A DNA stretch of 40,933 nt. It comes from Spirogloea muscicola. Taxonomy: Eukaryota; Streptophyta; Zygnematophyceae; Spirogloeales; Spirogloeaceae. The stretch spans positions 816,533-857,465 of the forward strand of contig WELB01000034.1 of assembly GCA_009602725.1 (NCBI GenBank), read 5' to 3'. The notes beneath the pieces were generated by a model. It did not search any database, was not told where the DNA came from, and saw only the letters and a program-made list of their open reading frames with translations. The position numbers and the translations under genes are program-made. Below, piece by piece: positions 126 through 33,712 of this stretch. Positions within the stretch are counted from its first letter, which is position 1. Each line of letters opens with the position of its first letter.

Positions 126-390
126 AGAAGTGGCTCTCTCCCACTGGGGGCAAGGGCTGTGAGAAGCCAGCCCCGAAAAGAATGGACAAGGTTCGAAGGG
201 GCCAGACTACGAGCTAGGCAGCGACTGCTGGCCGCGCTTGCTCTCAGAAGACGAAGAAGAAGTGGCTCTCCCACTGGGGGCAAGGGCTGTGAGAAGCCAG
301 CCCGAAAAGAATGGACAAGGTTCGAAGGGGCCAGACTACGAGCTAGGCAGCGACTGCTGGGCCTGAAGAGGCTATGGCAGAACGGGTGAC
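126..390 (-). repeat. Tandem pair of about 120-bp hairpin repeat units
   Basis: Two near-identical units start at about 126 and 250. Each reads GTGGCTCTCCCACTGGGGG, a CAAGGGCTGTGAGAAGCCAG stem region, then GAATGGACAAGGTTCGAAGG and a block ending GCAGCGACTGCTGG. On the minus strand the core is CCATTCTTTTCGGGCTGGC, loop, CAGCCCTTGCCCC. The flank at 362-390 is the reverse complement of the 3' UTR seen in the retrotransposon copies at 14.4 kb and 33.1-33.5 kb (CCGTTCTGCCATAGCC type). The array is therefore the 3' tail of a largely deleted copy on the minus strand. Confidence 0.75.
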
Positions 391-499
391 AGCTGACGGC
401 ATCGACTCCGCCCATCCCACCAGATCGGCGTCGGTTGCAGGGCAACGCGGCCGGCCTGGAAAGGATGAGAAGTGGCACTCCCAATGGGGAGTGCCACAT

Positions 500-650
500 C
501 TCCTTCAGACCTTGTCCATTCTTTTGGGCTGGCCTCTCCCAGCCACCACTTAATCTGGCCGCGCTTGCTTGCTCCCAATGGGGGCAAGGGCTGTGTAAAG
601 CCAGCTCGGAAAAGAATCGACGAAGGTTCGAAGGGGCCAAACGACGGAGG
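500..650. repeat. Two hairpin repeat units in inverted orientation
   Basis: A plus-oriented unit (about 503-566; CTTGTCCATTCTTTTGGGCT, loop CCTCTC, CCAGCC, then CACTTAATCTGGCCGCGCTT) is followed at once by a minus-oriented unit (about 571-650; CCCAATGGGGGCAAGGGCTG ... AAAGCCAGC ... GGTTCGAAGGGGCC). The pair could fold back on itself. It lies directly upstream of the truncated retrotransposon copy that begins near 655. Confidence 0.75.
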
Positions 651-654
651 GGGC

Positions 655-1090
655 CTAAAATGGTCGGCCAGGAGGCCCGGGGCAAGGAGCGAAAATATGC
701 CGATCACCCGGTGGGGGATGAATTCGCGGCCCTGGCGATGGATGTACTCGGGGCTTTCGGCAGCAGCTGGCTGGATCTCCTCCAGCGGCTTGCCCGCCAG
801 GCCATTGACCGGCGGCCGGGTCTGCCAGGGGCAATGCCCGGCTTCAAGGCCGCCGGATCGCTCGCCCAAGTCTTCCGCATGCGCCTGGCTGTATCGTTTC
901 ACCCGCTCCCTTGCCCCACGCCGTCCACACGCGAGCAGGCCGTGCTATGGCCGCCGCCTCTGGGTCTCGGCGGAGTGCCTCTTTCCCTAAAGCGAGCTAC
1001 TCAGATCTGATGTTGCTCACTGTGGGTACTGAGCTTCCCTCAGCATCGTCTGTGTGTTTTGTAGTGCTTTAAAGTGTAGCCCTTTTTCCG
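655..1090 (+). pseudogene. 5'-truncated non-LTR retrotransposon, C-terminal end and 3' UTR
   Basis: The frame running to 1010 reads ARGKERKYADH, then GDEFAALAMDV, LARQAIDRRPGLPGAMPGF and GSLAQVFRM. These match, almost residue for residue, the C-terminus of the long element on the minus strand at about 10.2-9.85 kb. The following non-coding tail (GATGTTGCTCACT, GGGTACTGAGCTT, TCTGTGTGTTTTG) is shared with the 3' end of that element too. Reverse transcriptase and nuclease core are missing, the usual outcome of aborted target-primed reverse transcription. The tail leads straight into a hairpin unit at about 1108. Confidence 0.75.
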
Positions 1091-1103
1091 GCTCCTCATT
1101 CTT

Positions 1104-1330
1104 TGGCTTTGGACACTGTCCATTCTTTTTTGGGCTGGCTTTGCCAGCTCCTCTTCTCTATGGGCGAGCACTTCCTCCTTTTCACTTGGCCACTTGGCCA
1201 CTTCGGCCCTTTGGAGAGATGGAGAAGCGTAGTGAGCTCACAGCAATTGACCTCTCTGGGCTTCCTCTCACAGCCGTCGTCCTCTACTGGAAGCGTCTTT
1301 CTTCTGAACGAGAACGCGAGCTCATCCAAA
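1104..1330 (+). repeat. Two further plus-oriented hairpin units
   Basis: Unit one (about 1108-1175) reads GGACACTGTCCATTC, then GGGCTGGCTTTGCCAGC, then CTCTTCTCTATGGGCGAGCA, the same subtype as at 9.72-9.78 kb and 32.9-33.2 kb. A second, diverged unit (about 1230-1300) reads GGGCTTCCTCTCACAGCC followed by GTCGTCCTCTACTGGAAG and CTTTCTTCTG, a subtype also seen at 18.2 and 19.8 kb. Confidence 0.65.
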
Positions 1331-1497
1331 ACTAAGTGAGCTCTTCCACAAAGGCCGCGGGCTGGGAACGGTCAGCCCACATGGGGGGGGAGCGGAGAGA
1401 AGCAGCTGCATTCTTGGTAAGTAACTCTCTCCAGCGGTAGAGCTCCTCCTCCTACTTCTGCCCTTCTACGCCCATCCCCCCCCTTATGCAAAGCTTG

Positions 1498-1562
1498 TCT
1501 TCTGGAGGGGGCAAGGGCTGCTGAGGGCCAGCCCACCAGAATGTCAATAGCTGCTTCCTCTC
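1498..1562 (-). repeat. Hairpin repeat unit
   Basis: GGAGGGGGCAAGGGCTGCTG, then AGGGCCAGCCCACCAGAATG. On the minus strand this is GACATTCTGGTGGGCTGGCC, a loop, CAGCCCTTGCCCCC, the same arrangement as the other units. Confidence 0.6.
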
Positions 1563-5100: not shown

Positions 5101-8100
5101 AGGGAGCTTGCCTGTTCAGATCGTCGATCAAACTCAAGGATCACATCCCTGTTCTGCTGTTTTAAGCATGCTCGGATCGGCGCATTTAGCATGGGTTTCC
5201 AGCTATACAGACGGTCCACCTGATCATGAAGCAACGGCAAGCACTCACATGTCTTAGCGAAGAGTTGACGATTGCCCAGCATTGCATGCTCGTCAGAACA
5301 GTAAGAAGACAGCAGTATTGGAGGAGTCCAGTATTCTGTCTCTCTTTCTCAAGACCCTGGAGCATTTACTATCTAGCCTGATGGTCTACAACTGATCAGA
5401 CAGGTGGGCAAGGGGGTCAACCTTGTTCATGGCCACGATGAAAGGGGTCTTTTTGCTCTTTAGGAGGTTCAGCGACTCAATGGTCTGCGGCTCCAAGCCA
5501 TGCATGATGTCCACCACCAGGATGGCGATGTCGCACAGGCTCGAACCCCGGGCCCTCAAGTTGGTGAACGACTCGTGGCCGGGCGTGTCAATGATCAGGA
5601 GACCTGGGACACGCAGCGTGGCGTCGGCCTTGAGCTCCTTGGTGCGCTCTCGAATGTTCTCCATGGGGAAGTACGTTGCCCCAATCTGCTGCGTGATGCC
5701 CCCTGCCTCGCCCTCCTGCACGTTGGTCCGCCGGATGCAATCCAGCAGCTTCGTCTTGCCTGTGTCTACATGGCCCAGAATGCAGCAAATGGGCGACCGC
5801 AGATCCTCAGCGCTACGCTGGCTCAGCGCCTCCGCCTTGCGCGCCTCCCGCCGTTGTCGTGCCTCGCGCTTCTTCCTCACAGTCACGTTGTCATCCTCAC
5901 TGTCTGTCCCAGACTCACTTGTCATGTCGCTCTCGTCCTCGTCATCGTCCTCCAATTCATTCTCGCTCCCAGACTCGGCAGCCTGGCGCTGCGGCTGCTT
6001 TGTTGGCCCTCGGGCCTTGATCGGCGCCTCCCTGGAGGTGGACGCCTGCTTGACCAAAGTCTTCTTTGCCGGCTCCGCTCTAGCCATGGGCTTCGTCGAT
6101 GTTCTGGTAGCAGCAGCAGTGCGTTCCTCCTCGCTTTCCTCCTCGTCCTCGTCAAAAGCGCCCCGCTTCTTGAGCGCAGGCAGCGCAACGTCATCTGCGT
6201 CCCAGCTCTTGGCATCCCATTCGTCTTCCTCCTCCTCCTCCTTCTCTTCCTCCTCCTCCTCCCCCTCCTCCTCCTCCTCCTCCTCCTGAACTGCAGCAGA
6301 CGGCTCGGCCTCCTCTTGCACAACAGCCTCTGTCTGCTGCACAGAGTCCTCCTCCTGGTACTCCTCGTTGTCCTCCTGGTGATCCTCAATAGCCTGCTCG
6401 GCTGCCCTCTCCGAGGGCTTGGCATCCACAACCTCCCCCACCTTGTCATCCACCAAGTCGCCAGGGTGATGAACTTCGTCAGCCGACGTCTGAGCGCTTG
6501 GCCTCCGCTTCTTCCTGCTCTCGTAAATGACCTTCTTCTTCTGAGCGCCAGGCGTTGGTGGCTCGGCAGCGTCCACCTCCTTATCAGCATCTAGCCCCGC
6601 CTGGGCCAGGAGCTGCTGGCGCATCGCCGCCAAGCGCTTAGCCTCCTCCTTTTGCTTGCCTGTATGCCGGACGTTTATAATGAATTCCATAAGTGGCCAC
6701 AGTGCACTTGCGCATAAGAAAGTTCATACTCAATACAAGTCGTCCACAGGGCTCAGAACAATACATGAATTCGCAGATCAGGGACCTCGTTGCCCATACC
6801 AGTGAGCAGCAAACCCTCCTTCTTCTTCTGCAGGAGCTTCTCCTTCTCGCGCTCCTTGCGCCGCTTCTTGGCCTCCTCCTTCTGCCGCTCCAGCTCAGCA
6901 AGACGAGCCTCCTCCTCCTCCTCCCTGCGCCGCTGCTCCTCCTCCTCCGCGCGCCGCTTCTCCTCAGCCTCCTTGAGCCGCGCGAGCCTCTCCTGCATCT
7001 CCCGCACGTGCTTTGGCAGCTTCTTGTCAGTGCCGGCCTTGCCTTTGGCAGCCGGCGTGGCAGCTGCCACCACTGTCACGGCCTCTGCTGCAGTCGCGGC
7101 GTCGCCAGCATCTGTCTCCTTATTCTCAGCCGCAGCGGCTTTGGCGGCTTTCTCCTTCTCCTTCTTCTTCCGCTTCTTTTTGGCAGCTGCCGACTCGGGC
7201 GCACCTGGCTCTTGCAACTCGTCATCGTTGCCACCCTCGACTGCCGCTGCCTCGGCCACAGCCCCGTCTCCATCCACAGACGACTCTGCCGCCACGGAAG
7301 CCAAGGGGGGACTCTCTTCTGACGCAGGGACCGCCCGAGCCTGAGGAGCAGCCGGTGAGGCACCCTTGGGGGGTCCTTCGAGCTCTGCCAGTAGCGCGTC
7401 GATCTCGTCCTCCTCCTCCTGTGTGCGCAACTTCCCCTTCTTCCCTTTCTTTCCCTTCTTGGCACCAGCAGCAACCGCTGCCAAGTCGGCACTGTCAGCA
7501 CCAGCGCCGCCGCTTGCCGCAGCAGCCTCGTTCATTGACACGCCCTCCGGCAAGGCCGCATCAGCTGCCACCGGTGCTGCAGCTGCTGCCTCCACCTCGA
7601 CCGATGCTGATGCCTGGGTCTGCTGCGATGACGACGCTGCCATCTTTGATGGGCCATCGAGCTCAGCTAGGAGAGCTTCAATGTCATCCTCATCCTGCAA
7701 GGCTCGCAGCGACGCTGCGCCGCCCGTCTCCTTGCCCTTCTTACCCTTCTTCTTGTCATCAAGGAATTGTACAGCGGTGTCGTCGACCCCGTGCACAGCA
7801 TCCGTCTCCAACGGCCCTGCCTCCTGTGGATCGCTGCCGCCCTCGATAGCCGATGGTGATGCAGTATCTGTCGAGGCCGCCGCTCCAGCTTTGGGCAGGC
7901 CATCCATTTCAGCAAGCCGCACGTCTTCCTCTGCAGCATCCTCTCTGAATTCCTTCTTGCCCTTCTTGCCCTTTTTCTTCTTGCCCTCGAATGTGATTGC
8001 CACCTCCTCGCCATCTGCATCAGTTGCGGTAGTGGCGTCAGACTCCTGCCGCTGGCCTTTGGCAGCCCCGTTCATGGCCACCATTGGCGGCTCCTTATTC

Positions 8101-9491
8101 ACCGATCCCCGGGCTGGACTCTCTGCTGCATCCGACACAGCTTCCAGCTTTCTATCGAGCTCGGACATCTCCCCCTCATTCTCCAGATCCTGTGGCCCCT
8201 TCTTTCCCTTCTTCCCCTTCTTCTTCTTGCCACTGAAGGCAAGCACCTGAACATCAGCATCCTCCTCAATCTTCGCAACTGCCATCTCCTGCTGGCGGTC
8301 GTCGCCGCTGACCCCGTTCGACGTGCTGGGCTCTGCTGCGTCCACCGCCGCTTCTGCTGGTGCAACAGCGGCTGCCTCTGGCGGGCCCTCGAGCTCGGGC
8401 AGGACGTCGTCCATCTCGGCCTCATCCTCCACGCCCTGCACAGCCTTCACCCCCTTCTTCCCCACCTTCCGTATCCCGCCAAGAGCTGCTGCCATCGTGG
8501 CGTCCTCGCCCTCGACGTCCGACGGCAAAGCCTCAGGCTCCTCATCGTCCTCTGCTGCCACAACAACGCTCGCAGAGGCAGGCCGTCCGGCTAGCACAGC
8601 GTCCTCGTCCTCCTCGTCTGGCTCCTGCACCGCCTTCTTCCCCTTCTTCCTAGCCTTCTTCTTACTGCCCGCAGAGCTGGCGATCGACGCATCATCGTCC
8701 TCCTCCCGACGCTCGCTGTCGCCGGCATGAGCGCCATTTGTCGCCGTCGCCGCCGCCTCTGCCGCTGGCGCCGCGCTGCCGAGCTCGGCCAGGAGCGAGT
8801 CCATCTCGGCATAATCGTCGTCCAGCCCCTCCCGCGTCGACTTCTTCCCGGCCTTCCCCTTCTTCTTCCGGCCGCCAGCAATGGCTGCCGGGAGGCCTGC
8901 AGCTCCCCCGTCGTCCGCCTCCTTGTGCTCCTCATCCTTGCCGAACCCGTTCACAGCCGCCGCTGGCTGGCTGCCGCCGCCGCCGCCGAGCTCGGTCAGC
9001 AGCGCGTCCATCTCGGCCTCGTCGTCCACGTCCCGGGCCGCCTTCTTGCCCGCCTTCCCCTTCTTCTTCCTGCCGCCGAGTGCGGCCGCCAGCGCCAACA
9101 AGCCGTCCTCGTCGTTGTCAGTGGCGGCCGCCGCCGCCGCCCCCGGCGGCTCGTCACCGTCTTCCGCACCGTTCGCATGCGCCGCCGCCGCCGGCGCCGC
9201 GTCGCGCTCCGGCTCGCCGCCGAGCTCCGCCAGAAGCGCGTTCATGGCGGCCTCGTCGTCCTCCTCCTGCGCAGCCTTCCTGCCCTTCTTGCCCTTCTTC
9301 TTGCCGCCGCCAACGGAAGACGCCGCGCCCGCCACNCCGCCGCCGCCGCCGCCGCGACGCGAGCCACCTGCCGCGCCCTTGGGGTTAGGCCACGGTCGCG
9401 ACGGCTGAAAGCCGCCACTCGGGCCAAGGCGTACCCCGGACACGGCTCTCACCGTCAGGCACGACGTTACTAAACGGCCTTTCGCAACCAT
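2171..9491 (-). CDS. eIF5B: Translation initiation factor eIF5B (IF2-type GTPase), 13 exons
   Basis: eIF5B is the cytosolic GTPase that joins the 60S subunit to the 48S complex. Exons on the minus strand: 9491-6800, 6659-5422, 5219-5112, 4931-4831, 4737-4647, 4475-4365, 4243-4178, 3953-3894, 3723-3403, 3285-3046, 2875-2756, 2562-2443, 2236-2171; all junction phases agree. This gives about 1,777 residues against about 1,220 in human. The N-terminal half is lysine/acidic and repetitive. The G domain starts near residue 1,190: [18 protein letters not shown] (switch 1), [14 protein letters not shown]. Later come PTSAIS, the linker [39 protein letters not shown]-like [33 protein letters not shown] and the C-terminal helix ending LKKLYEIP. 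The intron after 5112 has a GC donor (GCAAGC); the rest are GT-AG. The start is uncertain: ATG 9491 is chosen because the in-frame ATG at 9530 lies in a dispersed repeat; an extra 5' exon is possible. An N base at 9336 hides one residue. Confidence 0.95.
7130..9315 (-). repeat. Tandem lysine/acidic modules inside eIF5B exon 1
   Basis: Nine to ten copies, each 60-100 residues, pair a basic block (KKKGKKGKK or [12 protein letters not shown]) with an acidic-leucine block ([15 protein letters not shown]) and an Ala/Pro-rich spacer. The first follows residue 60 or so; the last basic block is [12 protein letters not shown]. Later copies are more diverged (LDRKLEA, EMDGLP). Metazoan eIF5B has a few looser blocks of the same type near its N-terminus, so this looks like expansion of an ancestral module. 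Confidence 0.85.
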
Positions 9492-9512
9492 CGCAGCGGG
9501 CCCAGGAGAGAA

Positions 9513-9565
9513 GGCGCGCGCGGAGCGCATGAAATTGAAAGGGAGGCCAATCCTAGCCTTACAGA
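9513..9565. repeat. About 50-bp repeat shared with 16171-16222
   Basis: GAAGGCGCGCG, then GGGAGGCCAATCCTAGCCTT here, and GAAGGCGCGCG, then GGGAGGCCAATTCGAGCCTT at 16171-16222, both in plus orientation. It overlaps the upstream in-frame ATG (9530) of eIF5B and marks the edge of the accessory island. Confidence 0.6.
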
Positions 9566-9699
9566 TATCTTGGTAACGGGGGTAACGAGCTAGCTAATGG
9601 GGACACTAATATCCTCGAGTTAGCAAGTACTACATGTTTGACAAGCCAAGCTGAGGAGCCAGACAAGAACAGCTCTTCCAGTGTACGGCAGTGGCTGTG

Positions 9700-9795
9700 A
9701 GGAAAGAAAGTGCTCGCCCATAGATAAGAGGGGCTGGCAAAGCCAGCCCAAAAGAGAATGGACAATGTCCGAAGCCAAAGAAAGAGGAGCCGGAA
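9700..9795 (-). repeat. Hairpin unit in the 3' tail of the long retrotransposon
   Basis: On the minus strand: CGGACATTGTCCATTCTC, then the near-perfect stem GGGCTGGCTTTGCCAGCCC (8-bp arms, 3-base loop), then CTCTTATCTATGGGCGAGCA. It follows the 3' UTR of the element (9840-9800) at the same distance as in the truncated copy at 655-1090. Confidence 0.75.
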
Positions 9796-10179
9796 AAAGG
9801 ACTACACTACAAACACTGCAAAACACATAGACGATGCAGAGGTAAGCTCAGTACCCACGAGTGAGCAACATCAGGTCTGAGTAGCTCGCTGCAGGGAAAG
9901 AGGCACCCCACCGAGACCCAGAGGCGGCCTGCTCGCGTGTGGACGGCGTGGACAAGGGAGCGTTGAAGCGATACCGTCAGGCTGATGTGGAAGACTTGGG
10001 CGAGCGATCCGGCGGCGTTGAAGCCGGGCATCGCCCCTGGCAGACCCGGCCGCCGGTCAATGGCCTGGCGGGCAAGCCGCTGAAGGAGATCCAGCCAGCG
10101 GCTGCCTAAAGCCTCGTGTACATCCATCGCCAGGGCCGCGAATTCATCACCAATCCGGTGATCGGCATATTTTCGCTCC

Positions 10180-10345
10180 TTGCCCCGGGCCGCCAGGCCG
10201 ACCTCGCGCCCTGCAAACGACGCCGATCTGGTGGGATTGGGGGAGTCGATGCAGTCAGTTGTCACAAAATCGGCGATGATGCGGGGACCGCCGCCGGGGG
10301 GGATGGCGACCAGGTCGGCGCGTTGTGTATGGGGCTGGCTGTCTG
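10180..10345 (-). pseudogene. Restriction-like endonuclease core of the long element
   Basis: A variable loop of Pro/Gly separates RADLVAI from RIIADFVTTD, giving the D-x(n)-(E/D)xx spacing expected of PD-(D/E)XK nucleases at the C-terminus of RLE-class LINEs. The copy at 14.9 kb keeps the same positions (RRVDLVATTPGGGGRIIADV). The assignment rests on motif and position, not on a search. Confidence 0.55.
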
Positions 10346-13300
10346 CGCCCAGCTGGATGGGCATTATTGAAGACTTCTCCACAGCCACCTTGAAGCCAGC
10401 CTCCATAAACACCCCCTGCATACCATCTCGCAGGAGATCGTGGGAAGCGGTCCGCTCGCCCCCGTGTGCGCAACGGAGCATATGCGCAGCCAGCTCAGCA
10501 GGTTCAGCGTGACTCGTGACGGGTACCGCACTCACACTGAGTGACGCCCACGAGGCAGGGAGGGAGGAGGCCCAAGAGCCGGTGGACCGCCGTCCTGAAG
10601 ACCTCATCGGGCATGGTGAGCGCCGCGTGGAGTGGAAGCGCTGATAACCACGCCACCGCCCCAAGGGAGGAGGCTGAGAGAAGCCGGGCGCGCCCTCGAA
10701 GGTCAGACGGAGGGAGAAGCTCCACCACCTGGTCAGAGGCCACTTTTCCAACCAGCGCCGAGAAGCGTGCCTGGGCACGCAGGTCAGGGGTGTGGGCGAG
10801 GTGGATGAAAGGGACGGCCTGCTCCGACATGTTGGGGTGGACCGCCAGGAGCCCGTCGCAGGCAGAGCGGAGGGCAACCTGAAAGGGCAGCTGACCGATC
10901 TCCACTTCAGCTGCCGCCCGCTCCAGGGCGCGCTGGCCGTGGACGAGGAACCTCTGGCACATGGGGCTGCCACCTGAGCCCAGCTACCCATGTAGGCCGC
11001 CTCGCAGGCGCGGGCAACTGAGCGGCATCCCAAGCCGCCGCGGCTGGTCGGCAGGCTAGCCTGCAGCAACGCAGCTGGTGACGTGAGGAATGCAGGGTGC
11101 TGCACGAGGGTGGCCGCGGACGCCAGGATGCCGGAGTCAAAAGCCGCATACGCTGCCTTCACTGCCGATGAGGGAGGGATGGTGCGGGCCAGATAGTGTG
11201 GCCGCTGCGCGATGCAGCGTGTCAGCATCGTGGTCGCCAGCTGCATGTCCTGCAGCGTGTGAAGACGGTCCGCCGGCCGGAGGTGTTCCTGCAGCCGCGC
11301 CTGCAGCTGCTCCGTCACAAAGGCAGGTGCGCCTAGGGGGACGCCGAGGAGGGTGAGGCCCCCGGCTGGTGTCTGGCAACCCTCGGGCAGGCGCAGGTGG
11401 GCTGGCAGGCCCTGAGGGGACCAGGCGCTGCATTTGTCCCCCCGGATGTCCATGCCGATCGCGCTGAGCTGCACTTGGAGGGTGGCAAAGGCAGCTGCGA
11501 CATCCTCTGGCTTCCCCACCAGCGTGGTGTCATCAGCGTATGGCGGAACGAGGACGCCGGGGTGAACCACGACCATTGCCTGGAGCGCACTGATGTGCCA
11601 GCGCATACTAGAACCCCGCCAGTGGATCCCCTTGGCGCACGCCCATGGTGGAGTGGAGGGTCTCCACCGCATCACCCCCCGCCCGCCACTGCAGCTCGCA
11701 TGGCTGACCGTACCCCAGCCTGAAGAAGGGTAGAAGGCTGGGGAAAGCCTCTCTCAGCTCCTCCGCGATGACATCACGATCAACGCTGTTGAAGGTGTTG
11801 CGGACGTCGACCCCCATGGCCACCCATTCGGGATGCAGGTCCAGGGCGGCCCGTACGCCGTGCACGACCATCTCACCACCGCTCCGCAGCCCCGCACCAA
11901 ACTGTTGGGGCGCCAGGTGTGCCTGGGCCTGCCCTGCGTGCTGTTGCCAAAGAGCGCGCCCCACCAGGCGGTAGAGCACCTCACCGATGGCCATGGGCCT
12001 TGCCCCCCCCACCAGCCTTACTGAGCGCCAGCAGTGTACTGGTGCACAGGATGCCGCGAATGCTGGCCGGGACTTGGTCGCGAGCGAGGAGCTGGCACAC
12101 CTGGTGGAGCGCCTGGAAGTCGGCCTGGTCGCCCTCCAGGAAGATTTCCCGGAGATGCTCGGTAAGCATGTGGGAAGGACCTCCAGCGGCCACACGGCGG
12201 CTGCTCTGCAGGGCCCTCCGCAGGGCGTCGGCTTCGAGGACCACCTCCTCCGGCGGTGCGAAGGTGGCCAGCCATGGGGGCAGGGGGTGGCGAGCCGCAG
12301 GGTGCAGGAACTCCAGGGCCGCCCTTGTGGCAGCATTGGTGGGCGCCAGCACCGAGTCGTCCAGGGCCTGGACCGCCCTTGACAACTCGCCCGCGTATCG
12401 AAATGCAGAGCCCGGCAGACATTGGCGGCCCTGTCTGGTGCGACCCGCGCGTCACCTCGGTTCGCTGCCGAGGCCGCCACCGCTGCGTCATGGCGCGCGA
12501 GAAGCTCCCTCCAATGGCCGCTCTCAAACAATCGGACGCGCTCCAGAAGGGGCTGCTGGCCCTGCCAGCAGCCGACGTGGGGGGCACGGCCGAGCAGTAG
12601 CCGGGGGAAGAGGAGAAACTGCTTCCAAACCGCCTCGTCCCAGTGGTCCCTGGCAATTCCGCTGCATCGCATGTGCGGGCGCACCCAGCGGGGCACATGG
12701 CGGAGGAGCGGGAGGGCCGCCTGGCGGTGGATGGCAGCCAGGTCGAGGCCGGCCAGCCATTGCCAGTGTTGAGGTGTGGGAGGGTTTGGCGAGGGAGGGA
12801 CAGGCCTGCCTGGTCTGCCCGGCGGCCGCCCGCAGCCGCTGCGCTCCGTGCCTGCGTCGCACGGTTGTTGTTGAGCACGCAGGCGCACTCGTGGTTGGCC
12901 CGGCCTGACCGCGTAGTGAAGGTCGTCTAGCAGTGCTGGCACAGCAGGGGGTCGGGCGAGCGAGGTGGTGGCGAGGGCGCTGGAGCTGGTGCGCTCGGTA
13001 AAGGCGGAGGAGGCGATGGCGAGGTCGGCGTCGTGGCGCCGACGGCGGGGGGCAGGGCGGCTCGAGAGGCGGGATGGTGGATGGCTGGGAAGGCGGAAGC
13101 GCAGACTTGGGAAGCGGCGGCGAGGTCGAGGCGGGTGGCTGGCTCAGCGGAGGTGGACTCTGGGGTGGCGGTGGCGGCGACGGCGGCGACGGGGGTGACG
13201 GCGGCAGAGGCGGCAGCGACGGCGGTGGGGACCGCGGCCCTGCTGGCACGGGAGGCGCACTCACGGGGATATCAGGGGCAGCATCACGCCCAAGGGACAA

Positions 13301-13690: not shown

Positions 13691-14099
13691 CGGGGCTGGG
13701 ATACCCCTTGCAGTGTTTCCGGTGCGAGGAGACACCGCGGGGAGTAGCAAAATCCCGCGGACAGATTGGGCACGGCACGCGCGCGGACGCCGCGGTGGGG
13801 AAGACGGCGGCGGGAGAGATGGGGGGGGCGCAGGTGGGGGCGATGGTGCTGGGAGGGGGAAAGGCGGAGGGGGCGGCGGCGGAGGTGGCGTGGTGGCGGC
13901 ATGGAAGGCGGAGAAGGCGAGGAACCGCTGCGCCCAAGCGAACTTGGCCGGTGCACAAGTTCAGGACTCCGGCTCCCAAGGCGGCGCCGAGAACGCGAGG
14001 GTGGGCGACGGGGGGCGGCGCGGGGGCGACGGGAGCGACGGGAGCNGGCGACGGCGACGGCCCGGGGTTTAGGAGGGGCGGCGGCGGCGGCACGAGAGA

Positions 14100-14150
14100 G
14101 AGCCAAGGGCTGTGAGGGGCCAGCCCAAACGAATGAACGAGGTCGCAGTC
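14100..14150 (-). repeat. Hairpin unit at the 5' edge of the long retrotransposon
   Basis: AGGGCTGTGAGGGGCCAGCC, then CAAACGAATGAACGAGGTCG: on the minus strand, a diverged GGCTGGCCCCTCACAGCC hairpin. The element is thus bracketed by units of the same family on both sides. Confidence 0.6.
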
Positions 14151-14294: not shown

Positions 14295-14470
14295 AACGAA
14301 AGTGGCTCTCCCAAGAGAAGGGGCACTCCCAATGGGGGCAACGGCTGTGAAAAGCCAGCCCGAAGAAGAATGACAAAGTTTCGAAGGGGCCAAATGATGG
14401 AGGGGCCTAAAAAGCGCTAAGCAGCTTTGAAGGGGCCTGAAGAGGCTATGTCAGAACGGGGGAGGATGGA
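14295..14470 (-). repeat. Hairpin unit plus 3' UTR of the second retrotransposon copy
   Basis: Minus strand order: TGAGTGGTCCATCCTCCCCC, TTCTGACATAGCCTCTTCAG, CCCCTTCGAAACTTTGTCAT, then GGGCTGGCTTTTCACAGCC, GTTGCCCCCATTGGGAGTGC. This is the stop-proximal UTR of the copy at 14475-15548 running directly into a hairpin unit, as in the tandem tails at 126-390 and 33505-33712. Confidence 0.75.
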
Positions 14471-14474
14471 CCAC

Positions 14475-15548
14475 TCAGTAGTTGCGAGTGAGGAGCCTCA
14501 AATCCGAGAGACTAGCTGCTGGAAAACTATCCCCCTGACGAAAGCCGGAGGCCGCAGCGAGAGCACGGCCAGCACGCAGATGCAAGGCGTGGGCCATGGA
14601 CTGCTGAAGGGAGACGAACAATCGCATACGGTATACCTGAGCCCACGGACCAGCGCCGTTGAAGTCAGCCGGCTCACCGCGCCTGCGGGACACAGCACGC
14701 CACGCAAGCCTGGCCAGCAGGTCGAGCCACTGGGACCCGAGAGCCCCGTGCACGTCCACAGCGAGGGGGACGAAATCATCTGCGGCCGGGTGGTCAGCGT
14801 GTTTGGCCGCCTTGCTGCGAGCGGCCTTCGCGGCAGCGTGGCCAGCTTGCGAGGCAGAAAGCCCCGGGTTGGAGCGGTCGACCACATCAGTGGTGACCAC
14901 ATCAGCAATGATGCGCCCGCCGCCGCCCGGCGTGGTCGCCACCAGGTCGACGCGGCGCGTGTGGAGTCCGTCGGCCCTGTGGAGGATTGGCATGACAGAC
15001 GTATTCTCCATCGCAACCGTGTATCCGGCCTCCTGGAAGATGCCGAACATCGCGTGTCGGAGGAGGTCGTGAGCAGCTGTACGTTCGCCTCTAGTGGCGC
15101 AGCGGAGGATAGGCGCCGCCAGCTCCGCCGGGTCCGTCGACCTGCTCCCCACACGCACACTGCAGCACGCCAAGGCGGGGGGGGACCCAACAGGCGATGG
15201 GTGGCCGTACGGAAGAGTTCGTCCGGCCCCTGAGGGCGTCGTACAGGGGGAGCGCGCAGAGCCAGGCTGCCGCGCCAGGGGAGGCGGCCGACAGCAGCCC
15301 GAGCATGGCCGCGCGCGTTCGTGGGAGGGAGGAACTGCAGCGTGGCCGTGAAGGACGCCGTGTCGACTGCCGCCATGTACCGCGCCTGCGCTTGCGAGTC
15401 GGTGGAGTGGGCAAGGTGGGCAAACGGGACCACGCTCTCTGCGAGAGCAGGGTGCTCCGCAAGTAACTCGTCTTGAGCTGAGCGGAGCGCCACCTGAAAG
15501 GCAGCGAGCCGGTCGCCACCTCCGCCACAGACTGCTGCAGCATGGGCC
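14475..15548 (-). pseudogene. 5'-truncated retrotransposon copy (C-terminal third)
   Basis: This begins inside the region after the RT (FQVALRSAQDELLAEHPAL, matching FQVALRSACDGLLAVHPNM in the long copy), then carries LQCACGEQVDG, ELAAPILRCATRGERTAAHD, RRVDLVATTPGGGGRIIADV, DFVPLAVDVHGALGSQWLDL and SGFRQGDSFPAASLSDLRLL. At least one frameshift lies near 15.15 kb, between the part carrying LPPTNARGHAR and the nuclease part. The nuclease-to-stop part (about 15120-14475) is open. It differs clearly from the long copy, so it represents another subfamily. Confidence 0.8.
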
Positions 15549-15650
15549 GCCCAAGGGGGCGAGGGCTGTGAAGAAAGAGCTCTTCCAACATAAAGCAGTG
15601 GCTGTGCATGGCCAGCCAAAGGATGATACAAGGTCTGAAAGGGCCGAATT
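15549..15650 (-). repeat. Hairpin units at the 5' truncation point of the second copy
   Basis: GGGGGCGAGGGCTGTGAAG, AAGAGCTCTTCCAACATAAA, then GTGGCTGTGCATGGCCAGCC and ACAAGGTCTGAAAGGGCCG. The retrotransposon sequence stops exactly where the repeat starts. Confidence 0.6.
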
Positions 15651-16017: not shown

Positions 16018-16160
16018 CTCCGACTCCTTCAGACCTTGTCCATTCTTTTGGGCTGGCCTCTCCCAGCCACCAGTTAATCTGGCCGCGCTTGCCCGTGGAC
16101 GTCGATAGCAAGCACGACAGCCAGCCAATCAACAAGGTCCGAAGGGGCCGAAAAGCGCAG
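16018..16160. repeat. Hairpin unit and partial opposite unit
   Basis: Plus: ACCTTGTCCATTCTTTTGGG, CTGGCCTCTCCCAGCC, ACCAGTTAATCTGGCCGCGC, nearly identical to 503-566 and 32655-32712. An inverted remnant follows at about 16132-16160 (CAAGGTCCGAAGGGGCCG). It separates two head-to-head retrotransposon fragments. Confidence 0.7.
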
Positions 16161-16224: not shown

Positions 16225-16600
16225 GTCCGCAAAGAGGCCAAAGAGGCCACGCCGACCGCCATGATGCGGACGAGTTCGTCCAACTGGCCGTCGATGTGCA
16301 CGGGCTCTCGCTCTCAGTGCTAGATCTGTTGGCCCAGCCTGCGCAACACGCTGTATCCCGCAGGCGGGGCGAGCAGGCCGACTTCAATGCCGCTGGCTCG
16401 CTAGCGCAGGTGTTTCGCATGCACCTGAACATATCCCTCCAGCAGTCCATGGCCTACGCCTTGCAATTGCGTGTTGGCCGTGCTCTAGCTGCAGCATTTT
16501 GCTTACGTCAAGGGAGTTCCTTCCCGGCGGCTATTCTCTCTGACTTGCGGCTAACTTTACTGCTGCCACAATTATCATCGCAGTACCAACAGAAATAGTT
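16225..16600 (+). pseudogene. 5'-truncated retrotransposon C-terminal fragment
   Basis: The plus frame reads DEFVQLAVDVHGLSLSVLDL, AQHAVSRRRGEQADFNAAGS, LAQVFRMHLNISLQQSMAYA and LRQGSSFPAAILSDLRL, matching the end of the 14.5-kb and 33.2-kb copies. It starts after the nuclease core. The final residues diverge before a stop near 16598. Confidence 0.75.
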
Positions 16601-17150
16601 GGATTGCTACTATGACTAGAGGTTATCATGTGGTTATCCTTCATGGTCCTTGCTTAGTAATGTCTTTCAGCGCTTCTCGGCCCCTCTGACCATGTCAATT
16701 CTTCGCAGGCCGGCTGTTCACACCCGCTTGGAAAGGCACAAATGTATGCCGCTATGATAGTTGTGTTCAGTATGTGCCACTTCTGCACTGAGCAACACAC
16801 GAACGTACTCCTATATGGCTACAGGTCTGTTTCGAGTGGCCGCCAAGAATTGCTGCTTCAGGACTTCAGTCAAGGAGGAGGTTCGTCCTACACAATATTC
16901 TAGTTGACCTCGGGCTGCTATTGTGCTCGTGCAGGAGTTGCCTGGTTGCTGTTGATTACTTCGCTGCGTCTCTCCTTTGGTGGCTTGTTCAGCTCAGCTT
17001 TGAGTCACTTACGGGTTGGTCACTCCAGCTTCTTCCTCTTGAGAGCGCCCCCTGGCACGAAAAATAAATACACGAAATCTTCCTGGCTTTCCAGTAGAAG
17101 CAGGCTCTTGCTCCTCAGCTCCTCTTTGTGGCTGATTCCTCAGGCTGCCC
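16601..17150. other. No gene recognised; one diverged hairpin unit
   Basis: Around 16665-16740 a weak unit is visible (GACCATGTCAATTCTTCGCA, GGCCGGCTGTTCACACCC). The rest has only short frames without domain or splice support. Confidence 0.4.
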
Positions 17151-17154: not shown

Positions 17155-17365
17155 TGTATGAAGAAAGACGCTTCCAGGAGAGGGCGGTGGCTGGGAGAGG
17201 CCACCCCAGGAAAATGCATTTTCAAAGTCCGAAGGGACCAGTAAGAGCACTCTCAAGCGGCAGGAACGTCCTTGACAAGGACTTGACAAGGACTCCATCC
17301 CTTTGGGCTGGCCACCCACAGCGACTCCCTTTTCCAGGCGTTCTTTCTCTTTTCGCTCAAGTTTT
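17155..17365. repeat. Opposed pair of diverged hairpin units
   Basis: A minus unit (about 17160-17235: GCGGTGGCTGGGAGAGGCCA, then AAGTCCGAAGGGACC) is followed by a plus unit (about 17270-17350: GGACTCCATCCCTTTGGGCT, GGCCACCCACAGCGACTCCC, TTTTCCAGGCGTTC). Confidence 0.55.
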
Positions 17366-17808: not shown

Positions 17809-18204
17809 CTGCATATTAAAAGCTACATTTTCTCAGCAGATGTGGCAAGCTACTCTGAAAGTCCTAGATCCGTGTAACTGATGTTTCTCCTCAGTAAAAA
17901 AAAGCTTATAGAGCATGCCAATGACAGCTGTGAATACTCTTTGTGCAGGTACTTCATGACTTTGGAACAAAGGCCACTGAGCATCTCTTGGTAAGACAAC
18001 CTCTCTCACCACCTGTGTTGTAATGCCAGACGCCGTTTGCTTTCTTAACTCGCCCTGGGCTTCCACCTCTTGCGCGAACGCCTCCTGCCGGCAGCAATCG
18101 CGCAGGCCCAGCCTTCCGGCCCTGAGATACTCCGACTGGCACCAATCGATAGTGTGATATGCAAGAGTCAAGATTAGAGCAGTGTGCTTTAGCACTTATC
18201 TGGC

Positions 18205-18290
18205 ACCTACGCACTCTTTTCATTCTCTTTCTGGGCTGGCCAATCACAGCCATCGCCCTTTACTGGAAGAAACTTCCTCTCCTTAGAGCA
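18205..18290 (+). repeat. Hairpin repeat unit
   Basis: TCATTCTCTTTCTGGGCTGG, CCAATCACAGCC, ATCGCCCTTTACTGGAAG, AAACTTCCTCTCC. This is the subtype with a TCTACTGGAAG-like 3' part, shared with 1257-1300 and 19790-19830. Confidence 0.65.
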
Positions 18291-19084: not shown

Positions 19085-19195
19085 AGAGGCCCTTCAACCA
19101 GGCCTGCCTAGAGAAGCTTTTGCCAAGAGGAGGGCGGCGGCTGTGAAAGGCCAGCACGAATAAAACGGACAAGGTCTGGGGAAGCCTCGACAGGG
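19085..19195 (-). repeat. Hairpin repeat unit
   Basis: AGAAGCTTTTGCCAAGAGGA, GGGCGGCGGCTGTGAAAGGC, CAGCACGAATAAAACGGACA, AGGTCTGGGG. Read on the minus strand it has the usual order: GTCCGTTTTATTCGTGCTGG, a loop, CACAGCCGCCGCCC. Confidence 0.6.
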
Positions 19196-19559
19196 GACGC
19201 CAACAAACCAGCACAACGAGTGGCCACAAAAAGGGAGGGGAGAGGGATCGACGGAGGCAGTTGGGTTGCAAGAGAGAAGGGCTCGCCCACTGAGGATAGG
19301 GGAGGGCCAAGTCAGCCAAGAGGGCCAGTCAGCCTCAGAGGCAGCGCCAGGGAATAGAAACGACTATTCCGCCAGGGGAGAAGCCCGCATGCAAATATTG
19401 GACGGCAAGAGCGGCCAAGTGCATAGGCAAGCGCACCTACTCAATGCAAGCCGCCCAGCCGCTGAGGGAAGGGGCGGCACACAGCAGCCACCGCCCACTA
19501 CTGGAATCGTCTTCAGTTCTTGCAGCCGCTCAGCTGGTCCCCCCGGGCTGGTGGCTTTT

Positions 19560-19840
19560 CACGATTCCGGCTCCGTTGGACCTTGTGTTCTCTTGTGGGC
19601 AGGCTTTTACAGCCCCCGCCCCGGTGGAAGAGCTGCTTCTCGTCCACGGCCATGGCCCTCGGGGGCAGAGCTTCCCCCCGGCTAGGCCAATGTCCATCCC
19701 TTTCGGGCTTGCTTTTCGCAGCACTCGCCCCCCTCTGGATGAGCTAGCTCAAATCCTTAATCTTGCAGACCTTGTAAAGTTCAGGCCGTTGGGCTTGCCT
19801 CTCACAGCCATCGCCCTCATCTGGAAGTCTTACTTCTGCT
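19560..19840 (+). repeat. Three consecutive plus-oriented hairpin units
   Basis: Units at about 19572-19640 (GGACCTTGTGTTCTCTTGTG, GGCAGGCTTTTACAGCCC), 19685-19740 (AATGTCCATCCCTTTCGGGC, TTGCTTTTCGCAGCACTCGC) and 19768-19835 (GACCTTGTAAAGTTCAGG, GGGCTTGCCTCTCACAGCC, ATCGCCCTCATCTGGAAG). Each ends in a CTGGA(A/T)(G)-like motif. They are more diverged from one another than the tandem units at 126-360. Confidence 0.6.
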
Positions 19841-20590: not shown

Positions 20591-20594
20591 CCTA

Positions 20595-20665
20595 GCTTAA
20601 GAGAAGTTCGTCGCCCAAAAGGCCAGCCCAAACGAATGGACCAGGTCCAAAGCGCCTCGCTGAAG
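20595..20665 (-). repeat. Hairpin unit remnant
   Basis: GCCCAAAAGGCCAGCCCAAA, CGAATGGACCAGGTCCAAAG: the GTCCATTCGTTTGGGCTGGC half of the unit on the minus strand. The second stem arm is lost. It is the last unit before the bHLH gene. Confidence 0.5.
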
Positions 20666-29500: not shown

Positions 29501-32408
29501 TGCAGAACTCGGCAAATGGACTTACGTGCTGACAAGTTCGATGCCAAACAACTCCTTGACTGGGTCAGCAAGCCTGCAAGTATCAAGTTTTAACAAGAAC
29601 TGGTAAGGACCAGCGGCAGCTTTCAGCAGTTCCTTTGTAAAAAGGTTACACTCCACTATGAGCAGACCACAACAGTAATCCGTCCTCCTTCACTCTCAGT
29701 GAAAGGGAAGGATATCGGTGCTCGACGTATCTCAGCCATCAAAGAGTTGATGCTGCTGCTTCTCCCCACCCCCATCCTCCCTCCCTCCCTCCCTCCCTCT
29801 CTCTTTCTCTCCGTTGTACAAAGTAGCTAAGCAGACCGAATGAAATTTGGAACTGGACTCAGTTTTCCAATTTCTAGTTTACCCATCTGTGATTTTGGCA
29901 TAGAGCTACCTCCCGTGGCCTTCCCCTGGAATACTGTAAACTCGATTTCACACCATCAAGTTCAAGGGATGCTTGTGTGTGCCCACACCTGCCTGCACCT
30001 GCTGTGTTCACACTACTGGATTTAAGGCGTTCTGAGAGTGTGGAAAGAAGCTGTGTCCAACACTCCTCAGCATCCTGGCGAGTATAAAGACAAGAGCAGG
30101 TAGACTATTACGTGCGAAATCTGGAAATATGATAATTGAATCTGCCTATTGCAACAGAGCTGTAGGATGACTACTGCAGCATAGCCTCCTACTAGTACTT
30201 TCTCTAATCGGCACACAATAAGTACAGGAATGCTTCAGCAGATGAGACTCATTGTGCACACAGGATATTGACAGTGACATATGCAAGACATCAAGGAGAC
30301 ATACACAATCTCAAACATGTGGGGCTCACAGAAGTGCTGTAGTAAGAGAACCTGAGAAGGTATGTCAAGATACCTGCTGCATAGGTGCACCCCCCTCGCT
30401 GGTCTCAGCAAATTGAGGAAACAGCTCCCGCAGGAACTGCAGGACGATAGCTGCCGATGCAAAAGTTACAGGACTACAAAGATAAACAGCGATAAAGAAC
30501 ATTGTCGTCTTGCAATACAAAATTTTGCAGGGCTGATCGTGTCAGCACCATAAGGGTACTGACCATTGTAAAGCGGAAGGGAGCAACTGGCTTTTGGCTG
30601 GTTTTGAGCTCCACAAAGAGGTCCCGAGTTGCCAGCGCAAGCTTATGAGATCTGTCCTGGGTAATGCCTGACCCATCTGAATAGCTGCACAGGTGATTCA
30701 GATTGCCAAAGTCAGGTACAGCTTCTACTGCGTAACCCTTGACATGTTCAGAAGAATAAGCAGGAATACTTTGAATCCTCGATTCATACGAGGACTCAAA
30801 GCTCTCTAATTTGCAGTCGTGAGCCAATAGCTCTAACATGCATGCTCTAAGTGCAAGGTGTAGCTTGTGGCCAATGATCACTGAATTCATGAACATAAAT
30901 GATGCACAAACTTAAAGAGTGTCCATGTACGACCATGCACCATCAAGCTGCGAGACCTCACAGGCTGAGAGCAGAATTCAGTTCGGGCACATGTTGTAGA
31001 CACTGGATGGTTGAATTCATGTAACACGTTTCTCCCAGATTGATCAAGCCTGCGCTGTACTCCGACTGCAGTGGCATAGTATCTGACTTTGATCATCTGA
31101 CAAGATCTTCGGTACACCAGCGCAAGCTACAAGTGGAACAAGCGCTGCCATAACACTTGCACTGCCAGGTAGCACTCACAACATGCCACTGCAGTTTGGC
31201 AACCGCAAGACTGACTGTGGGACTTGCGCATCCCAATGGCAGCAATCACTCACGTTTGCAGCAGCTTCCTGCTCCTCATGCGGCAGGTCCTCAAGAAAAG
31301 TCGTCTTGTCTACTGGCTGGCTCGGCAAGGCATCAGCAGTTCCCATCATCATCAGCTTTTGACCCTGTTATACAGCAATAGAGTGTCTCGGGTTTAGGGT
31401 TGTTGGTTTGCTGGCATGTGTGCACCTTGCTGTGATATACAACCACGGGGCCGCTACAGCTTCAGCTACGCAACAATTAGAAGCCAGGGCTACAAGGAGC
31501 ATTCTCCCTAACGAAGGTGTTGTCGTTGACAGCTGACCTCCTTGATGGCCACCTTTGACCACTCGGCGTCATCCTGCAAAGCACGCACAGGGCTTTAACA
31601 AGCGCACTTCGAACAGATGCTTGACAAACCATTACCCTCAACCTTGAAAGGACAAGGTGGGCTAGTAAGAGAGATTGTTACGCATGCTTAATTCCACTGC
31701 AGCTTGAGTAAGAACAAGTTTGCCAGGATAATTGCTCAAGATTCATGTTGTCAAAGTGGACTTTAAACTGGCCATATAGTCATGTGCAAAACGAGGAGGC
31801 ACCTGAAGAAGGCCTCCCTTGACCATGATCTTCTGGCGCTCAGGTGCGACACCAGTCAGGGCAAACATCTGCCCCTTGAAGACCAGGGGCAGCTGGCTGA
31901 CGTCGATCTCCACGTCTTCGAAGAGCTCCTTCTGCCACTTGACGCTCACTGCAATGGGGGCAGCTTGCCACTGTCGTCAGCACTTGCACGGGCGCGCTGC
32001 CAACGACGGATGCTCTGCACGGTGCGCTCGAGGCAGCCTCCCACTGGTCAGAATCACTCATGATTGTGGGCAAGGCCGGCGGCTAGTCAAGCGCAGCTTC
32101 GCGCAGACATGTCTCCTTGCCCACAGGAGCACGCACACTGGCTCAATTGTTGCAGCATGCGGGCCTGTGGCGGCGGTGCCACGTGAGGACTCCAAGCCCC
32201 ACGGCCGAGTCGCTTTGGAAGCAGCCAGTGAATCGGACCCGCTAATGGTCTTGCGGACGAGGATCAGTGGCCCACGCTAATTCTCGTCCGCCTCAGCTGA
32301 CTGCCACTGAGTCCGGTCAGGCAAGGAGCCTGGTGCGAGCTAGCAACAGTCCCGCCTAAACAGTTCAGGAAAGGGGGGCTGGCGAGGTGCACGCTCACCC
32401 TTCACCAT
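26549..32408 (-). CDS. UBP6: Proteasome-associated ubiquitin hydrolase UBP6/USP14, 18 exons
   Basis: Cysteine protease that removes ubiquitin from substrates docked on the 26S proteasome. Minus-strand exons: 32408-32399, 31948-31803, 31573-31538, 31364-31254, 31065-30962, 30684-30564, 30436-30374, 30074-29989, 29573-29526, 29219-29111, 28932-28844, 28560-28491, 28347-28267, 27986-27798, 27541-27490, 27202-27089, 26886-26812, 26607-26549; phases agree and give about 520 residues (482 in Arabidopsis UBP6). The N-terminal ubiquitin-like domain reads VSVKWQKELFEDVEIDVSQ and PERQKIMVKGGLLQDDAEW. Catalytic domain: Cys box NLGETCYMNST, APMQQ|DAEECWTQLL, LKCHISAEVNFLQEGLK, YLTVQFVRFFWKRES, YPLVLDIYAF, His box GRSADSGHYVSWVKQESG, then SGGG|DWHMAYILLYKAR. 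The usual NLGNTCYM carries Glu (codon 31032-31030) for the second Asn, while the oxyanion Asn, Cys, His and Asp are kept. The 10-nt first exon is inferred from ATG plus a GTGAGC donor. The gene ends convergently, 650 bp from the bHLH gene. Confidence 0.93.
29766..29812. repeat. CCCT/CT microsatellite in a UBP6 intron
   Basis: CCTCCCTCCCTCCCTCCC followed by CTCTCTTTCTCTCC, within the intron between exons 8 and 9 of UBP6. On the transcribed strand it is a GGGA purine tract. Confidence 0.8.
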
Positions 32409-32654
32409 GGCTGCGAGCCGCCGCCGGCAAAGCCTTCACGAGGACTGTCGAGCGTGGCGGGCCTGCCGCGAGACCTGCGGCGGCAGCGACGGCGGCGGCG
32501 GCGGCGGAGTTGGCGGAGGAGGATGGCTGTGGAGGGGACTTCGCGTGTGATAGGAGGCGGGGTGGTCTAGCTGATATACACGCTGAAGCACACAGCGACT
32601 TAAGTGGCCACTGGATGCTCAATATAGAGCACCCTATACCACTCAACTTGGAAG
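32409..32654. promoter_or_regulatory. Upstream region of UBP6 with GCC/GGC triplet tract
   Basis: A (GGC)n-like stretch at about 32479-32515 lies 70-110 bp upstream of the inferred UBP6 start and probably belongs to its 5' UTR or core promoter. No TATA box or specific operator can be named. Confidence 0.3.
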
Positions 32655-32812
32655 CGCTTTCCATTCCTTTGGGCTGGCCTCTCCCAGCCACCAGTTAATC
32701 TGGCCGCTCTTGCTTTCTTTTTCGTCCAAATGTAGAGTGCTCAGTAGCAGGGCGATGGCTGTGGTTGGCAGCCCAGGAAAGGGATTTGAGAATGAATGCT
32801 GCGCCAGAGTGG
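32655..32812. repeat. Opposed pair of hairpin units upstream of UBP6
   Basis: Plus unit at about 32662-32712: TCCATTCCTTTGGGCTGGCC, TCTCCCAGCC, ACCAGTTAATCTGGCCGCTC, the same subtype as at 503 and 16033. Minus unit at about 32750-32805: GCGATGGCTGTGGTTGGCAG, CCCAGGAAAGGGATTTGAGA. Confidence 0.65.
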
Positions 32813-32899
32813 AATCTTCAGACATTGATGTGAAGAACAGAAGAAAGAGAAGAAGAGAGCTCTGCCAAGAGATATGGGCGAGCCGTCTTCTCTGCCAAG

Positions 32900-32998
32900 A
32901 GAGACAGAAAGTGCTCGCCCATAGAGAACAGGGGCTGGCAAAGCAGAAGAAAGTGCTCGCCCATAGAGAAGAGGGGCTGGCAAAGCCAGCCCAAAATA
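32900..32998 (-). repeat. Tandem short hairpin modules (about 45 bp)
   Basis: AAGTGCTCGCCCATAGAGAA, CAGGGGCTGGCAAAGCAGA, then AAGTGCTCGCCCATAGAGAA, GAGGGGCTGGCAAAGCCAGC. The module occurs twice head to tail; the first copy has lost its second stem arm. It is the same sequence that is inserted at 33165-33209 in the opposite orientation. Confidence 0.75.
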
Positions 32999-33117
32999 CC
33001 GGCGAGCCCTTTGTCAGGGTGATAGTTTTCCGGCAGCTAGTCTGTCGGATTTGAGGCTCCTCACTCGTGACTACTGAGTGGTCCATCCTCCCCCGTTCTG
33101 CCATAGCCTCTTCAGGC
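32999..33117 (+). pseudogene. Extremely truncated retrotransposon 3' end
   Basis: GGTGATAGTTTTCCGGCAGC, TAGTCTGTCGGATTTGAGGC, then the 3' UTR TGAGTGGTCCATCCTCCCCC and CCATAGCCTCTTCAGGC. It repeats the last coding codons and UTR of the copy that begins immediately after it, so two 3' ends lie in tandem. Confidence 0.7.
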
Positions 33118-33504
33118 TGCTATGAGTTCGTCCCCCTGGCTGTGGACGTGCACGGGATCCTCGGCTGGCTTTGCCAGCCCCTCTTCTCTATGGGCGCGCA
33201 CTTCTTCTGATCCCACTGGCTCGACCTGTTGGCCAAGCTTGCACGGCGCGCTGTGTCCCGCAGGTGCGGTGAGCCGGCTGACTTCAACGCCCCTGGCTCG
33301 TGGGCTCAGGTATATCGTATGCGCTTGTCCGTCTCCCTCCAGCGGTCCATGGCCCACGCCTTGCATCTGCGTGCTGGCCGTGCTCTCGCTGCGGCCTCCG
33401 GCTTTCGTCAGGGGGATAGTTTTCCGGCAGCTAGTCTGACGGATGTGAGGCTCCTCACTCTTAACTACTGAGTGGTCCATCCTCCCCCGTTCTGCCATGG
33501 CCCC
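33118..33504 (+). pseudogene. 5'-truncated retrotransposon copy interrupted by a hairpin module
   Basis: The frame reads YEFVPLAVDVHGIL before the insert. After it: HWLDLLAKLARRAVSRRCGE, PADFNAPGSWAQVYRMRLS, LQRSMAHALHLRAGRALAA, SGFRQGDSFPAASLTDVRL and a stop at 33469-33471. It is very close to the 14.5-kb copy (for example SGFRQGDSFPAASLSDLRL), so probably a recent insertion. The 3' UTR runs into tandem hairpin units. Confidence 0.8.
33165..33209 (+). mobile_element. Clean 45-bp insertion of the hairpin module
   Basis: The flanks CACGGGATCCTCGG and ATCCCACTGGCTCGAC, joined, align without a gap to CACGGGGCTCTCGG and GTCCCAGTGGCTCGAC of the 14.5-kb copy. The 45 bp between them is CTGGCTTTGCCAGCCCCTCT plus TCTCTATGGGCGCGCACTTC and TTCTG, the same module as at 1120, 9735 and 32905-32998. 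No target-site duplication longer than one or two bases is apparent. The insert places a stop codon in the host copy. Confidence 0.75.
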
Positions 33505-33712
33505 GCAGTCGCTGCTTAGCTCGTAGTTTGGCCCCTTCGAACCTTGTCAATTCTTTTCAGTGCTTCTCACAGCCCTTGCCCCCATTAGGAGAGCCACTTC
33601 TTCAGGCCCCGTAGTCGCTGCTTAGCTCGTAGTTTGGCCCCTTCGAACCTTGTCAATTCTTTTCGGGCTGGCTTCTCACAGCCCTTGCCCCCCATTGGGA
33701 GAGCCACTCTTT
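33505..33712 (+). repeat. Tandem pair of about 105-bp hairpin units, retrotransposon tail
   Basis: Each unit: GTCGCTGCTTAGCTCGTAGT, TTGGCCCCTTCGAACCTTGT, CAATTCTTTTC, then (GGGCTGG)CTTCTCACAGCC, CTTGCCCCC, ATTGGGAGAGCCACT. The first unit has CAGTGCTTCTCACAGCC, so one stem arm is mutated. This is the mirror image of the array at 126-390 and follows the retrotransposon 3' UTR directly. Confidence 0.8.

Follow-up and report, generated by a model that had tools for sequence, protein, structure and literature searches.

What is the short hairpin-bearing repeat that recurs across a 40,933-nucleotide stretch of the Spirogloea muscicola genome (contig WELB01000034.1, positions 816,533 to 857,465; hereafter the window)? 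An initial annotation, made from the sequence alone, proposed that it might be an undescribed element. We found that the repeat is instead best explained, with little room for doubt, as the 3' untranslated region (UTR) tail of a diverse, R2-like lineage of long interspersed nuclear elements (LINEs) encoding a restriction-like endonuclease (RLE). We favor this assignment because the tail follows LINE coding sequence at a nearly fixed distance, because copies end at a common 3' point but start at different 5' positions, and because comparison of filled with empty sites reveals insertions of 46-119 bp made up of the tail and little else. It accounts for a repeat that annotation would otherwise record as a hairpin family of unknown nature.

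Copies were identified with a 73-nt profile built from LINE-linked tails and two seeds from the window. In element sense, the unit consists of a TTGTCCATTCTTTT box, a GGGCTGGC..CAGCC hairpin, a GCCC- or CC-rich block, a TGG..(A/C)GC motif and a CTTCTTC-like end. In the window the profile has 25 matches at E ≤ 0.01, rising to 29 at a cut-off of 0.02 and to 31 at a cut-off of 1, confirming the dispersed family of several subtypes and at least 25 copies, in both orientations, that had been described. All 28 positions originally listed (double entries counted as two points) have a profile match within 70 nt, 27 of them at E ≤ 0.02 and the remaining one (32749-32787) only at E = 1.2. The 29 matches at E ≤ 0.02 all fell inside three islands (1-1.6, 9.6-20.7 and 32.6-33.75 kb) with none elsewhere, in agreement with the claim that copies avoid host genes; the island borders were set partly from profile matches, and only one host gene outside them (encoding an eIF5B-like GTPase) was identified independently.

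The profile retrieved 243 matches at E ≤ 0.01 from the 268 kb analysed (29.6 kb of it masked N) and none from the reversed sequence; an enlarged 309-kb set gave 281 and none, respectively (one reversed match at E ≤ 10). Across the 153.1-Mb genome, the exact 14-nt box TTGTCCATTCTTTT occurs 4,408 times (once in the reversed control) and the exact core hairpin GGGCTGGCN{3,9}CAGCC 28,005 times (14 in the control), so the repeat is enriched far beyond this contig, as anticipated. Profile matches and exact hairpins numbered 18 and 9 in 20 arbitrarily placed 3-kb loci (39.3 of 60 kb unmasked), 25 and 15 in the window, and 36 and 14 in eight loci fetched with the box. Applying these ratios to the 28,005 core hairpins gives roughly 47,000-72,000 tail copies genome-wide, an extrapolation from small numbers. 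An Rfam scan of the window at E ≤ 1 returned no match for the repeat and one weak match elsewhere in the window, consistent with the original view that the repeat may be undescribed; open papers, surveyed by title or abstract, contained no description of the tail or of the LINE lineage.

A degenerate LINE occupies ~14.2-9.7 kb of the window on the minus strand. When 30 loci were fetched with its C-terminal protein, 25 had the box (≤3 mismatches) 140-174 nt past the coding match; at L024 and L030 the box past the coding match belongs to a nested copy. Same-strand LINE coding sequence lay no farther than 900 nt from 69 of 86 full tails and no farther than 300 nt from 61, and 22 had it on the opposite strand; because most loci were selected by LINE coding sequence, the 69 of 86 is not a genome average. 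A distant LINE group in the same genome (12 loci fetched, L069-L080), whose C-terminal pieces are 35-43% identical, carries a different tail without the GGGCTGGC hairpin, and the tail is therefore a character of the lineage. This distant R2-like group has 10,220 first-look candidates and a short tail of the form TACTTGGCC...GGCC...CAAATACACGAAA, followed by TTCTTC in several loci.

Of 73 tails of type T1, 61 go with protein group A. The subtypes probably reflect several LINE subfamilies, each with its own tail, a pattern that is clear for T1 only. Twelve genomic LINE places (G000 C19, C31, C35, C63, C77, C111 and others) share a single score (331 bits, 82%), suggesting that one LINE subfamily has produced near-identical and hence recent copies. 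In GGGCGAGC-type tails, a CGAG beside the stem resembles the CGAG reported next to the stem-loop of the plant L1 tail (PMC3747384); the sequences were compared for CGAG only, and the likeness is possibly due to chance.

The open reading frame (ORF) at locus L041 matches RVT_1 at E 1e-11, while the window's own frames reach only E 0.15 and 0.093, and the reverse transcriptase (RT) is of the type lacking long terminal repeats. Searching the PDB with an RT profile at E ≤ 1 returned eight sequences: three R2 proteins, four L1 ORF2p and 8c8j (labelled RNA-directed DNA polymerase). R2 proteins were the best match both by sequence with the RT profile and by structure comparison (VIA-align, covering the 1,000 chains ranked highest by Foldseek), and the link to R2 rests on these two results. 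The C-terminal region has a restriction-like endonuclease fold in which D135, D150 and Y184 are each ≥90% conserved; the main group mostly has KERKY or a close variant of it, and the distant group has KLQHY. A KX2KY motif with conserved acidic residues is described for the RLE in PMC5678591.

R2 and its RLE-bearing relatives (NeSL/Utopia, HERO, R4 and CRE) share with this lineage the order RT, linker, zinc knuckle and RLE as well as the KX2KY motif; the N-terminal zinc finger is weak here, and R2-like is meant broadly and does not assign the lineage to any one of these clades. The lineage differs from them in its very high copy number, its knuckle spacing and its lack of confinement to one target gene. 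R2 proper inserts at one site in 28S rDNA, whereas copies here lie in LINE sequence and intergenic islands. A Pfam scan of the window's broken N-terminal frames gave no Myb match and a zf-C2H2 hit at E 0.02, below the cut-off, that appears to belong to the same LINE. Three window translations that lie upstream of the RT or span it, all in broken frames, gave no apurinic endonuclease match, and an NCBIfam search returned nothing. Searching the genome with RVT_1 gave at least 150 matches; ORF lengths were not taken as a sign of intact elements because frames read through masked N (L039).

In 117 copies, conservation fades within ~6 nt past the profile end, after a pyrimidine run, while 5' homology extends from 0 to more than 1,000 nt (172 of 243 matches, limited by locus ends and by the relatives compared). 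Comparison of loci with one another yielded 187 insertion/deletion places of 40-300 bp, of which 43 contain a tail. In 26 of these 43, no more than 16 nt separate the tail 3' end from the edge; 1,000 random shifts gave 6.3 such places on average and never more than 20. Fifteen distinct single-tail insertions (≤140 bp, tail at the edge, omitting a second reading of one insertion) measure 46, 50, 54, 65, 69, 73, 74, 74, 80, 88, 106, 107, 108, 116 and 119 bp. Their 3' ends fall near one point and their 5' starts vary from within the hairpin to ~60 nt above the box; nine have flank overlaps of 5-10 nt. We read these insertions as retroposed LINE tails shortened from the 5' side, and their extreme 5' truncation resembles the products of target-primed reverse transcription.

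The same ends bear on whether the copies form a family of short interspersed elements (SINEs), that is, short RNA polymerase III (pol III) transcripts with a fixed 5' head and a borrowed LINE tail, which we consider improbable. One strand of some copies reads GGTTCGAA, which resembles a pol III B box. This word hinted at a tRNA-derived SINE, a candidate we dropped because the word is antisense and limited to some subtypes and because no fixed 5' end was found. ARAGORN detected no tRNA in the window, where no dedicated pol III promoter search was made. Many copies are indeed short and end in a LINE tail, as do SINEX copies with RandI/Dualen tails in the green alga Chlamydomonas, where SINE/LINE tail pairs are known (PMC3747384). 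However, the 15 short insertions differ in their 5' starts, with no fixed 5' head as in a SINE, and homology upstream, where present, reaches into the LINE 3' UTR and coding sequence. Dualen/RandI elements carry both apurinic and restriction-like endonucleases; of these, an RLE was found here.

A stand-alone hairpin DNA element (a miniature inverted-repeat transposable element or a Helitron-type 3' hairpin) would likewise be short, hairpin-bearing and numerous in both orientations, but the variable length, the fixed 3' end, the flank overlaps of varying length and the attachment to an RT gene make it very hard to sustain. Equally implausible is a conserved regulatory RNA or transcription terminator that arose at many genes independently of transposition. 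A hairpin with T-rich stretches between genes would suit it, but the insertions into LINE sequence have empty counterparts, copies number in the tens of thousands, the window shows islands rather than one copy per gene, and Rfam yielded no match for the repeat at E ≤ 1.

In stringent LINEs such as UnaL2 and ZfL2, the LINE protein is reported to recognise a 3' stem-loop (PMC4176376, PMC3747384). A stem-loop is likewise present at the 3' end here, without measurable covariation, and by analogy reverse transcription probably takes its start signal from the tail. The LINE protein would bind the tail within its RNA and nick a pyrimidine-rich target; reverse transcription would begin at the tail 3' end and often halt within ~50-150 nt, leaving tail-only copies. 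Old CTTCTTC tails would be favoured targets, and copies would therefore pile up head-to-tail in intergenic islands.

An exact search found a tail end followed by a box at 8-38 nt in 186 places genome-wide and in none of the reversed control. Among the 100 of these junctions listed, a CTTCTTC-like end is followed by the next copy, which begins at a variable distance from its own box. New copies thus commonly insert behind an old tail. Head-to-head box pairs occur in 6 places; because LINE bodies extend upstream, such pairs are disfavoured anyway, and because the search words also differ, the contrast between 186 and 6 does not reflect preference alone. In the analysed loci, neighbours at gaps of ≤60 nt comprised 40 in the same orientation, 17 tail-to-tail and 5 head-to-head, a modest difference from a biased sample.

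These patterns recall Zepp of green algae, whose nested insertion into its own copies gives tandem arrays in which 3' ends predominate and truncation at the 5' side is frequent (PMC8226300). Zepp-like L1 elements and the present lineage share this nesting and truncation. However, Zepp is an L1 element, a type with an L1-type RT and an apurinic endonuclease, and has one cluster per chromosome, thought to be centromeric, whereas the lineage here is R2-like and dispersed, with an RT closer to R2 than to L1 ORF2p and with an RLE. The principle is known from stringent LINE tails and Zepp-like nesting; as far as our limited searches show, an R2-like lineage with dispersed, tail-only, self-nesting copies at such a scale is new. 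We offer as a tentative suggestion, which may well prove wrong, that this lineage dropped its fixed target and now lands on its own old pyrimidine tails, that abortive tail-only copies are its main product, and that the tails form safe-haven islands keeping insertions out of genes.

Several observations weigh against these interpretations. Most analysed loci were selected through the LINE protein or the box. Tail types T2, T3 and T5 are mixed across protein groups, which could be due to nesting. For 72 of 199 tails, the 420 nt upstream contained no match to coding sequence. No tail is present at 144 of the 187 insertion/deletion places, the tail is not at the edge in 17 of the 43 that contain one, and 6 of the 15 short insertions have flank overlaps of ≤3 nt, two with a small gap. 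The zinc knuckle has its C, C, H and C residues with the spacing CX1CX11-12HX3C, compared with the published CX2-3CX7-8HX4C, and a PDB sequence search with either the C-terminal profile or the single L041 protein found no R2 protein or retrotransposon. RNAalifold predicted no consensus pair for 65 tails (71 representatives minus six that were unusually long or short or had a long C run), counted covarying pairs did not clearly exceed shuffles (lowest 25 of 500 among five measures), and a test of own against swapped arms yielded p = 0.035 in the core hairpin, against p = 0.80 in a possible outer helix. RNA structure is backed solely by the folding of some subtypes and not by covariation.

The core helix of the hairpin proposed initially is paired in 86.6% of cells of the 65-tail alignment, whereas the covariation proposed for its arms is not supported; both arms are nearly constant. 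We read the changes in these mostly conserved arms as decay in dead copies. Folding z-scores were -2.7, -2.6 and -2.0 for three copies and 0.1, -0.2 and -0.9 for three others. The box can also pair with ATGGGCGAG in an outer helix, which folds well in certain subfamilies but not in others, and we therefore make no family-wide claim for it.

Annotators should be aware that, in such genomes, a short hairpin repeat may turn out to be a LINE tail rather than a SINE, a miniature inverted-repeat element or an RNA. The results also make tens of thousands of natural LINE reverse-transcription end-points available in one genome. Counts over the filled/empty pairs and the 186 tandem junctions would measure how an R2-like enzyme truncates its copies at the 5' end, chooses its targets and targets copies of its own element. 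The copies and LINE segments in the window are listed in Table 1.

Table 1. LINE segments, tail copies and insertions in the window
Feature	Position	Strand	Evidence
Tail copy, oriented as 263..332	136..203	-	E 6.8e-17
Tail copy	263..332	-	E 4.6e-18
202-bp insertion with two tails	460..661		Empty site in L017; flank overlap 11 nt
Tail copy, CCAG..CTGG type	502..564	+	E 1.3e-13
Tail copy	572..638	-	E 9.1e-13
LINE C-terminal coding fragment, upstream of tail 1105-1173	627..899	+	64% identical to L041 ORF, E 9e-30
Tail copy	1105..1173	+	E 4.3e-17
Partial tail copy	1253..1295	+	E 0.01 and 0.012 in two runs
Partial tail copy, absent from the initial list	1339..1381	-	E 6.3e-4
Partial weak tail copy	1505..1543	-	E 0.015
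3' tail of the window's LINE (box, hairpin and GGGCGAGC motif)	9708..9776	-	Profile E 2.5e-18; box 152 nt past C-terminal coding match (L009)
Zinc-knuckle end and RLE region of the window's LINE	9924..10511	-	
RT segments of the window's LINE, broken frames	10953..12133	-	79-82% identical to L041 ORF
Putative N-terminal C2H2 zinc finger of the window's LINE, weak	13716..13775	-	PF13894 E 0.02, below curated cut-off; residues 148-167 of window:13389-14216:-
Partial tail copy	14103..14144	-	E 1.8e-6
Tail downstream of LINE fragment 14478-15149	14321..14391	-	E 1.7e-13
Second LINE fragment, C-terminal coding	14478..15149	-	65% identical to L041 ORF, E 1e-69
Tail copy	15575..15645	-	E 1.7e-9
Tail copy, CCAG..CTGG type	16024..16088	+	E 7.3e-14
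LINE C-terminal coding fragment	16239..16529	+	50% identical to L041 ORF, E 1e-20
Weak tail copy	16682..16725	+	E 0.012
Tail copy	17169..17239	-	E 7e-10
Weak tail copy	17295..17330	+	E 0.016
Tail copy, CTGGAAG type	18202..18270	+	E 5.1e-9
Tail copy	19129..19178	-	E 2.7e-7
Partial tail copy, absent from the initial list	19277..19319	-	E 0.0062
Tail copy	19570..19633	+	E 1.2e-7
Tail copy	19685..19745	+	E 4.4e-7
Tail copy	19764..19827	+	E 7.1e-6
Partial tail copy	20618..20655	-	E 4.3e-5
Tail copy	32660..32706	+	E 2.3e-7
Doubtful tail copy	32749..32787	-	E 1 and 1.2 in two runs
Truncated tail copy, oriented as 32951..32996	32909..32944	-	E 1.5e-6
Tail copy	32951..32996	-	E 4.2e-11
46-bp tail-only insertion, starting within the hairpin	33165..33210	+	Empty site in 2 related sequences; profile match 33163-33203, E 3.3e-8
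LINE C-terminal and 3' UTR fragment	33206..33502	+	91% inverted repeat of 14444-14740
Tail copy directly behind LINE fragment 33206..33502	33530..33596	+	E 2.5e-11
Tail copy, tandem with 33530-33596	33636..33706	+	E 3.4e-17

Outside the islands, the third gene-bearing stretch has a weak Golgin_A5 match at 38709-39098 (E 2e-5, below the curated cut-off). The translation GTPase gene lies at 5389-6723 on the minus strand (GTP_EFTU, E 8e-31) and is eIF5B-like by our reading; it is adjoined by a long repetitive frame at 6756-9593 with no Pfam match.

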